Origin: Evansella sp. LMS18
GTDB taxonomy: Bacteria > Bacillota > Bacilli > Bacillales > Salisediminibacteriaceae
Assembly: GCF_024362785.1 (NCBI RefSeq)
Contig: NZ_CP093301.1
Coordinates: forward strand, 3,720,001-3,784,000
Length of the DNA stretch: 64,000 nt
Direction of reading: 5' to 3'
The position numbers and the translations under genes were made by a program. The notes under the pieces were generated by a model that worked only from the letters and a program-made list of their open reading frames with translations, had not been told where the DNA came from and made no database searches. This document shows, in pieces, positions 52-1,653 of this stretch (position 1 is the stretch's first letter; each line of letters starts with the position of its first letter).

Positions 52-68
52 TGCAAGTTTTATGCCAA
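52..68 (-). promoter_or_regulatory. sigma-54 (SigL) -24/-12 promoter
   Basis: On the minus strand the sequence reads TTGGCAT, five bases, then TTGCA. The invariant GG (66-65) and GC (54-53) are separated by exactly 10 bases, as the -24/-12 class requires. Transcription would start near base 41 and give a leader of about 35 bases before the ATG at base 7. It sits directly downstream of a sigma-54 activator gene, as expected for a dedicated regulator-target pair. Confidence 0.8.
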
Positions 69-120
69 AGAGGGGAAAGGTTGGTACATAAGGATTTTAT
101 GAGGAGGGAAGTGGTAAATA

Positions 121-150
121 AAAAAGAAAGTGCCGAAAAATCAGCACTTT
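121..150 (-). terminator. terminator of the activator gene, also a candidate enhancer site
   Basis: A 10-bp inverted repeat with one mismatch (127-136 against 141-150, AAAA loop) is followed on the minus strand by a T-rich run (126-119), which fits a Rho-independent terminator for the activator gene ending at 150. The same arms contain the palindrome TGCCGA-N4-TCAGCA, repeated at 1598-1613. Its centre is about 97 bases upstream of the predicted sigma-54 start, a normal distance for an upstream activating sequence. Confidence 0.65.
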
Positions 151-1562
151 TACTCTATATCATATTTTGCTATTTTATATTGCAGTGTCTGCCGGGGTAT
201 TTTTAATAGTTTTGCAGCTTTATTTACATTGCCGTTAACATCGTTCAGTTTCTCTGTTATCAGCTTTTTCTCTAACAGTTCAAGGGTTTCCTTTAATCCT
301 GAGCCCTCAGTCTCAAAGAAATTTTTCCGGGGGGTACTATTGCTTTGGTATTTCAGCAGTTCTGCAGGCAGATCTTCAAGCCTGATGGTCTTCCCCTCTA
401 CAAGGTTCATGGCTGACTCAATACAGTGCTTCAGCTCCCTGACATTGCCCGGCCAGCTGTATGCTTTCATAGTTCTCATGGCCTCTTCGTTGACACCTTC
501 TATGCATTTACTGAACTGTGCATTGTAAAACCTGATAAAAGCCGGGATAAGAACGTCCAGGTCATCCATCCTTTCTTTCAGCGGGGGCAGTGAGAGAGAG
601 GCCACTTTTAACCGATAGAAAAGATCTTTACGAAGCACGTTTTTCTCCAGCAGTTTTTCAGGAGGCTCATTTGTCGCAGCGAGTACCCTGACATTTGTTT
701 TAACGCTTTTATTAGAACCAACTCTTCTTATGACGCCGTCTTCCAGCACCCGCAGCAGTTTAGCCTGCAGGTCATAAGGAAGGGTGTGGATCTCATCTAA
801 AAACAATGTTCCTGTATGGGCCAGTTCAAACAGGCCTTCCTTGTCTTCTGAACCTGTAAAGCTGCCTTTTACAGTACCAAATAAGGTGCTTTCCAGCAGG
901 GAAGGGGGGATAGCAGCACAGTTCTGGGAGATAAAAGGCCCATGGCTCCTTGGAGAGCTGTGATGAATACTTTGCACAAGAAGTTCTTTTCCTGTACCGG
1001 TTTCCCCGTACACAAATACAGGGGAAGACGTTTTCGCTATTTTTTCAGCTTTCCGGATCACTTCTGTCATTGAAGCATTCCTTGTGAGAATATCCGTAAA
1101 ACGGTATAAGACCTGGTTATCGCTTACATTTTCGGCCTTTACTTTTCGTCGGTCATTTTCTGTCTGTACTTCGATAAGCATGTTTGACAGCTTTTTAATT
1201 CTGGAATAATCTTTAGCAATCTCTACTGCACCTGCTATTTTATTATCAGCCATGACGGGAATGGTTGTATTGATTGTATCTATCAGCTCTCCCTTCATGT
1301 TCCTGTACGACTGAGGCTGATTATAAATAGGAAGCCCCGATTTGATCACCTGAAGTAATGTGGACGTCTGGTGGGAAAGGGAAGGAAAGACCTCCAGTAA
1401 AGGTTTTCCGATGACCTCCCGGCTCGACAGCCCATCGTGCCCCGCAGCGGTCTCATTATAATAAATCGTAATTCCGTTCTTATCCACTACGTGGATGCCT
1501 TCGTCAATACTTTCCAAAATTGCCTTTAACATTTCTGTAGTATCTTTATCTGATGCAAACAT
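150..1562 (-). CDS. sigma-54-dependent transcriptional activator (PAS, AAA+, Fis-type HTH; RocR-like)
   Basis: A 470-residue enhancer-binding protein. An N-terminal PAS-like sensor (about 10-120) is followed by a sigma-54 interaction AAA+ domain with Walker A GETGTGKE (186-193) and Walker B GTLFLDE (251-257), and a C-terminal Fis-type helix-turn-helix (about 445-466). This architecture is that of RocR, AcoR or BkdR-class activators, which use ATP to open sigma-54 promoters. The sigma-54-contacting loop, normally GAFTGA, reads GSFTGS (233-238); threonine and both glycines are kept but both alanines are serine. The start has a GGAGGG site just upstream. A matching sigma-54 promoter lies 80 bases beyond the stop. 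The inducing ligand cannot be read from the sequence; the RocR likeness does not prove arginine control. Confidence 0.9.
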   Translation of the reverse strand: MFASDKDTTEMLKAILESIDEGIHVVDKNGITIYYNETAAGHDGLSSREVIGKPLLEVFPSLSHQTSTLLQVIKSGLPIYNQPQSYRNMKGELIDTINTTIPVMADNKIAGAVEIAKDYSRIKKLSNMLIEVQTENDRRKVKAENVSDNQVLYRFTDILTRNASMTEVIRKAEKIAKTSSPVFVYGETGTGKELLVQSIHHSSPRSHGPFISQNCAAIPPSLLESTLFGTVKGSFTGSEDKEGLFELAHTGTLFLDEIHTLPYDLQAKLLRVLEDGVIRRVGSNKSVKTNVRVLAATNEPPEKLLEKNVLRKDLFYRLKVASLSLPPLKERMDDLDVLIPAFIRFYNAQFSKCIEGVNEEAMRTMKAYSWPGNVRELKHCIESAMNLVEGKTIRLEDLPAELLKYQSNSTPRKNFFETEGSGLKETLELLEKKLITEKLNDVNGNVNKAAKLLKIPRQTLQYKIAKYDIE

Positions 1563-1597
1563 ACACCCTCCTGGTTAATGCCGGAAATCCATCTAAG

Positions 1598-1613
1598 TGC
1601 CGAATTTTCAGCA
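1598..1613. promoter_or_regulatory. palindromic operator, candidate autoregulatory site of the activator
   Basis: The palindrome TGCCGA-ATTT-TCAGCA has the same half-sites, with the same 4-base spacing, as the palindrome at 131-146. It lies between the activator's predicted promoter and its start codon, just past the predicted transcription start, which would suit repression of its own gene. The function is inferred from sequence identity and position. Confidence 0.5.
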
Positions 1614-1624
1614 TATTCAATCTT

Positions 1625-1653
1625 ATCATATAGTTTTAATAGAGAAGAGGCAA
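1625..1653 (-). promoter_or_regulatory. SigA-type promoter of the activator gene
   Basis: On the minus strand TTGCCT (1653-1648), a 17-base spacer and TATGAT (1630-1625) fit a vegetative promoter. The palindrome at 1598-1613 begins 11 bases downstream of the -10 box. Confidence 0.5.

Follow-up and report, generated by a model that had tools for sequence, protein, structure and literature searches.

A predicted KamR operator upstream of kamA and kamR that also forms the core of the kamR terminator stem in Evansella sp. LMS18

In this study, we analyzed a 64,000-nucleotide stretch of Evansella sp. LMS18 DNA (the window), in which a 16-bp palindrome lies on each side of a regulator gene. The palindrome, TGCCGAAWWTTCGGCA, is very likely the operator of the sigma-54-dependent activator KamR, where it would act as the enhancer of kamA and in self-repression of kamR, and in this lineage it also forms the stem of the kamR terminator. 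From sequence comparison, it very probably binds KamR, the switch protein of lysine breakdown. The predicted operator precedes kamR in many families across the class. It also precedes the sigma-54 promoter of kamA in numerous genera of the order to which the window belongs, as well as in a single family from elsewhere.

Materials and Methods

Among the 397 genomes searched in the order, 151 carried KamR homologues (E ≤ 1e-115). The order sample, from which many close relatives were left out, comprised 122 loci from 121 genomes: 17 from a first homologue search, 25 from a second and 80 picked by hand (79 from the second search, 1 from the first). Ten loci with no kamA in the fetched stretch were excluded from kamA counts. 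A scan of a genome collection with the protein gave nine loci, two of them in Evansella, which were kept out of all counts. The sample from outside the order consisted of 66 loci (26 returned by the search and 40 picked by hand, some with partial protein matches) out of 116 matching genomes by tally; there, the kamA count was restricted to the 30 loci with a sigma-54 score of at least 10. Related species are not independent observations, and draws by genus or family were used where stated.

Results

Features of the locus are given in Table 1. The gene starting at base 7, whose identification the first-pass annotation had called for, continues beyond the window edge and has a product of 474 aa (ORF L005:12584-14008, read in flanking DNA), which we take to be lysine 2,3-aminomutase (KamA) by recognition of the protein. 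The name also rests on the arrangement of the two genes, which matches kamR-kamA as given in the excerpted text of PMC4428206. Since the gene is kamA, the activator gene upstream of it in the same orientation encodes the counterpart of Bacillus thuringiensis KamR. The protein, 95% identical to KamR of Evansella clarkii, has the domains of a bEBP, namely an AAA+ sigma-54 interaction domain (PF00158, 211.4 bits, E 8.8e-63) and a C-terminal Fis-type HTH (PF02954, 45.9 bits), and its gene adjoins a kamA with a -12/-24 promoter, as expected of KamR. A GAFTGA loop is present, but only as the variant GSFTGS; relatives mostly carry GSYTGA or GSFTGA and rarely the textbook GAFTGA. Such variants of the loop are presumably functional. 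To the left of the window, a yodT-yodS-yodR-yodP-like gene set converges on kamA (L005:8195-12099; genome 3714194-3718098). These genes putatively encode an aminotransferase, two CoA-transferase subunits and an acetyltransferase, and they are probably the rest of the lysine pathway. A PucR-like regulator gene adjoins the set, and inspection by eye revealed neither a KamR site nor a -12/-24 promoter upstream of it.

Table 1. Positions of predicted features at the kamR-kamA locus (window coordinates).
Feature	Position	Strand	Remarks
kamA first codons	1..7	-	gene begins at base 7 and continues beyond the window edge
kamA sigma-54 promoter TTGGCATAAAACTTGCA	52..68	-	from sequence; strong -24/-12 match in relatives
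intrinsic terminator of kamR	117..150	-	10-bp stem 127-150, TTTT loop, tail CTTTTTTATT
palindrome TGCYGA-N4-TCRGCA	131..146	.	predicted KamR enhancer (UAS) of kamA and terminator stem core
kamR	150..1562	-	470 aa, PAS-AAA+(sigma-54)-HTH_8 activator; ATG at 1562
HTH_8 DNA-binding domain	162..287	-	residues 426-467, contains IPRQTLQYK
O2, second, weaker palindrome	1579..1594	.	4 mismatches; centre 19 bp from O1
O1, first palindrome of predicted autoregulatory operator	1598..1613	.	just downstream of candidate kamR -10
candidate sigma-A promoter of kamR, TTGCCT-17-TATGAT	1625..1653	-	9/12 matches

The two copies of the palindrome, TGCCGAAAAATCAGCA at 131-146 and TGCCGAATTTTCAGCA at 1598-1613, are present on either side of kamR, as the first-pass annotation reported, and follow the pattern TGCYGA-N4-TCRGCA. 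Each is an imperfect dyad, with C opposite A at one position, so that the earlier term "palindrome" needs this qualification. With one mismatch allowed, the window holds 3 matches (0.53 expected from shuffles). The whole 4.9-Mb genome contains 5 exact sites and none of the reversed-pattern control. The third exact site resembles the terminator of an unrelated gene and is overlapped by no ORF of at least 40 aa, and the last two lie within reading frames of 315 and 116 aa. Given a background of only three sites in 4.9 Mb, chance is very unlikely to have put two of them 1.5 kb or less apart around a single regulator gene. When the 14 consensus sigma-54 promoters of the genome were inspected, a full match within 250 bp upstream was found only at kamA. 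At the other 13, the best candidates are those of L162 (2 mismatches, centred 18 bp from the promoter), L163 (3, at 17 bp) and L165 (3, at 115 bp), the rest having more, and use of the palindrome by these promoters was therefore rejected. The earlier annotation had named frequent occurrence of the palindrome without sigma-54 promoters as evidence against its proposal; in this genome, the palindrome is not common in that way. Across 35 genomes of the family, 68 exact sites were tallied (0 to 6 per genome; reversed control, 19), 15 of them at kamR. Exact matches therefore also occur away from kamR (~53 vs. 19 for the reversed control), and some of these are perhaps terminators or further KamR sites.

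The centre of the first copy lies 70 bp upstream of the first base of the kamA promoter and ~97 bp from the inferred start, in agreement with the earlier estimate. In the order sample, kamA lies downstream of kamR in the same direction at 112 of 122 loci, and a strong sigma-54 promoter (score at least 10 of 11) precedes it at all 112. In the 200 bp that precede this promoter, the palindrome with at most one mismatch was found at 45/112 loci, compared with 1/1120 dinucleotide shuffles and 1/488 pieces from inside kamR. At two mismatches, the count rose to 68/112 against 18/1120 shuffles and 28/488 kamR-internal pieces, a control that is not negligible. The best site has at least three mismatches at 44/112 loci, and 55/112 have no site with at most one mismatch (first base T or C) in the same 200 bp; in several genera, the predicted enhancer is thus either degenerate, located elsewhere or different.

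Where the palindrome is present, its position relative to kamR varies, from the final codons of the gene, through overlap with the stop codon, to a place well away from it, and a T-run may or may not follow. Among the 8 sites listed for genera g18 and g50, 7 share a centre 71 bp from the promoter, while their starts are 26 nt or 13 nt ahead of the end of the kamR stop codon or 19 nt beyond it. At locus L022, the site is 184 nt past the stop, without a T-run. At six loci (L055, L059, L060, L063, L072 and L124), the TAA stop codon of kamR falls in the 4-base loop of the putative operator, so that a single 16-bp stretch contains the end of the coding sequence, the predicted enhancer and the hairpin. 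Distances from site to promoter cluster near 48, 57-61, 69-71, 77-82, 89-94, 101-105 and 111-116 bp, with a thin tail to 184 bp. The period is about 11 bp (one site per genus, 28 sites: R 0.57, p 0.0002), and it persists when only distinct distances are counted (p 0.0003-0.0007). Measured from the kamR stop, the same 28 sites show no such phasing (p 0.49); the position of the site follows the promoter rather than the end of kamR. With one site per family (16), the median p was 0.075, and 36% of draws fell below 0.05. Outside the order, a strong sigma-54 promoter is accompanied by a kamA site at 27 of 30 loci, all 27 of them in family f68, and only 3 of these sites are followed by a T-run. The site is absent from both strong sigma-54 loci of family f73 (L229 and L238). 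Outside-order distances cluster on their own (R 0.52-0.72), and the phase of the order predicts them only at periods of at least 11 bp (p 0.46 at 10.5, 0.14 at 10.8, 0.039 at 11.0 and 0.011 at 11.2). A dyad conserved upstream of the promoter and helically phased with it, although more weakly per family, has properties expected of a UAS. An enhancer that acts by looping is consequently suggested with moderate strength by the phasing and with high strength by the conservation.

The first copy had also been described as the stem of the activator gene's terminator, and the hairpin bears this out. Its 10-bp stem begins at the third base of the kamR stop codon, has the palindrome as its core and is followed by a T-run, and the RNA fold has a free energy of -14.5 kcal/mol (z -3.95). 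As in intrinsic terminators generally, a G+C-containing stem precedes the T-run, and the stem is kept by compensatory change. By a strict test, the kamA site lies in a terminator-like hairpin at 35 of the 57 loci with a site and not at the remaining 22; when only a T-run and closeness to the stop are required, the count is 41/57. At these 41 T-run loci (22 genera), pairing at the three positions that flank the putative operator amounts to 52.2 of 66, vs. 35.1 when partners are re-dealt. The corresponding figures are 11.6/24 vs. 10.7 at the other 16 loci (8 genera) and 27/81 vs. 34 at the 27 loci of f68. Because flank covariation accompanies the T-run and is seen nowhere else, one sequence appears to be under two separable constraints: the operator letters would serve a protein, and flank pairing and T-run would serve RNA. 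Arm positions 4 and 5 are each unpaired in 10 of 41 terminator-like sites, which suggests that the arms are held by letter rather than by pairing, a weak point being that the sites were chosen for their arm letters.

An alternative is that the first copy is a terminator only and resembles the second because such stems are a common terminator style of these genomes. The hairpin is indeed a good terminator, similar stems exist elsewhere (a hairpin at genome position 382297 and one in L174), and across the family more exact sites lie away from kamR than the reversed control yields. However, among 203 terminator-like hairpins in a 464-kb sample, only that of kamR and one of the 202 others match the palindrome, a count by which coincidence of terminator style was rejected. 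Relatives keep the palindrome where no T-run follows, where it is part of the coding region or where the stop is distant, and its distances to the sigma-54 promoter form clusters. We therefore consider a terminator-only role very unlikely and favor an operator that is also a terminator stem. The terminator hairpin of kamR is real, and transcription of the gene presumably ends there.

The second copy, as the earlier annotation had it, lies between a promoter of the activator gene and its start codon. The sigma-A-like candidate at 1653-1625 is a weak promoter call, since 8 matches of this quality (9/12) occur in the 4 kb scanned vs. 6.4 in shuffles, and a TATGAT-like -10 is found at the same place in several orthologs. 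The copy is where it was placed, but it is not single, because a weaker palindrome (O2) lies beside it, and the tandem is conserved in relatives. With at most one mismatch, the palindrome is present upstream of kamR at 61/122 loci (shuffles, 0/1220), with at most two at 94/122 (13/1220), and outside the order with at most one at 46 of 66 loci (simple shuffles, 0/650). At the 93 loci whose first site has at most two mismatches, a second palindrome (at most four) is spaced 19-23 bp away in 90 and 21-22 bp in 75, centre to centre, or about two helical turns. A second palindrome with at most three mismatches occurs at 75/93 of these loci, compared with 12/465 shuffles. When one rule was applied at both places, a partner with at most three mismatches was found at 62 of 72 kamR sites and at 2 of 57 kamA sites, so a tandem arrangement is not general at kamA. 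Four loci, L075, L078 and L084 (g83) and L079 (g73), have the tandem before kamR and no good palindrome within 200 bp of the kamA promoter.

We also considered whether the element before kamR is an RNA leader hairpin that controls translation or elongation of kamR rather than a DNA operator. In favor of this, the element folds (-10.6 kcal/mol, z -1.87) and would be part of the transcript, provided that the proposed promoter is correct. In 91 tandem elements from 34 genera, however, no significant covariation of arms or flanks was found within O1, within O2 or between them, and thus no covarying helix precedes kamR. No Rfam family matched positions 1-2000 at the gathering score, the best of four weak matches (E 0.12) lying elsewhere, at 114-226. 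On these two grounds, an RNA leader was rejected. The same letters also recur ahead of the promoter of kamA, in DNA that its transcript does not include, and the tandem spacing of about two helical turns likewise speaks against a leader hairpin, which we regard as highly improbable. The absence of covariation makes DNA, not RNA, the likely target of this element. The pair at 1579-1613 lies just behind the candidate -10, a position suggesting that KamR represses kamR, and a tandem operator in this place fits self-repression.

A third possibility is that another regulator, such as a lysine or nitrogen sensor, binds the palindrome and controls both kamR and kamA, given that KamR as the binder is itself a prediction from sequence. 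In 14 loci from other orders (L214-L227), KamR kin keep the PRQT(L/M)QY(K/R) helix, and 8 of the 14 have a TGCYGA palindrome upstream (at most one mismatch), while kamA is ~1 kb away or was not found in the stretch; these KamR kin may control other genes through the same operator. A site that follows kamR without kamA in the fetched stretch argues against a different regulator, as does the lack of a full match at the other 13 consensus sigma-54 promoters. In addition, the excerpted text of PMC4428206 reports that KamR is needed for activation of kamA in B. thuringiensis. We give a different binder very little credence and retain KamR as the protein most likely to recognize the palindrome.

Discussion

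Zhang et al. (2014) is said to be the primary paper on KamR and kamA of B. thuringiensis. In strain HD73, according to the part of PMC4428206 available, KamR activates kamA through a -12/-24 promoter and is required for transcription of this gene. The locus described here resembles that system in having a PAS-type sigma-54 activator gene upstream of kamA in the same direction and a -12/-24 kamA promoter, and differs in that the same excerpt mentions neither a binding site for KamR nor autoregulation nor an overlap with a terminator (PMC4428206). The B. thuringiensis kamA promoter sequence as printed was found in none of the 397 genomes searched.

Several elements of the proposed arrangement have precedents. 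To our knowledge, the enhancer of Bacillus subtilis RocR is a plain enhancer and not a terminator stem. It resembles the site at 131-146 in sitting in an intergenic region behind a gene: located between rocG and rocABC, it serves sigma-54 promoters on both sides, as summarized in the available part of PMC4941409. The same excerpt describes SoxR of B. thuringiensis, a single binding site of which activates sigma-54 promoters and represses the regulator's own gene (PMC4941409). SoxR thus provides an experimental precedent for a site shared by activation and self-repression, but its site is an A/T-rich 11-bp inverted repeat, and no terminator role is mentioned in that excerpt (PMC4941409). GabR of B. 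thuringiensis, like KamR, is a PAS-AAA+-HTH activator, and it binds an inverted repeat near a sigma-54 promoter; in contrast to what we propose for KamR, it does not bind its own promoter, and the word "terminator" does not occur in the paper (PMC4279683). Lysine 2,3-aminomutase is named among the sigma-54-regulated genes of Bacilli in the available part of PMC12316311, and PMC6615313 gave no hits for lysine or terminator. Our literature search, largely of openly available papers, gave no match for a KamR binding site or an operator located within a terminator. The circuit is therefore of an already known kind. New, as far as the literature searched shows, are the predicted KamR operator, its putative single vs. 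tandem use and the apparently recurrent merging of the enhancer and the terminator that ends the gene of its own activator.

The first-pass annotation proposed that one family of sites serves activation, autoregulation and termination. Comparative evidence supports this view through enrichment of the palindrome at both places, helical clustering of its distances to the promoter and covarying pairs in the stem. In the mechanism that we envisage, a KamR dimer bound at 131-146 would act as the enhancer and loop to the sigma-54 RNA polymerase at 52-68, whereas KamR bound to the tandem pair behind the candidate promoter would repress kamR. In this lineage, the same DNA, together with a few complementary flanking bases and a T-run, makes up the terminator hairpin of kamR, as its sequence, fold and covariation show. 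The dyad of a dimer's site yields an RNA hairpin for free, and this lineage appears to have based its terminator on it.

The analysis supplies a predicted binding sequence for KamR, and none was found in the literature searched. It also offers a case in which one short sequence would satisfy fixed letters for a protein as well as pairing and a T-run for RNA. Because related lineages seem to keep the protein constraint only, they constitute natural controls, and the cost or benefit of merging an enhancer with a terminator is directly testable. A caution for annotation is that a terminator stem, once labeled as such, can conceal an enhancer. More tentatively, termination and enhancer occupancy could be coupled, with polymerase that finishes kamR displacing KamR and bound KamR acting as a roadblock that aids termination; we think this conceivable but rather doubtful. 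If it were true, kamR transcription and kamA activation would oppose each other at one 16-bp site, and the feedback would be missing in lineages without the T-run. In genome G012 (L025 / L146), the match to kamR ends at residue 347 and kamA lies ~2.2 kb further on; kamR is nevertheless still preceded by a tandem site, and kamA by a terminator-like palindrome.
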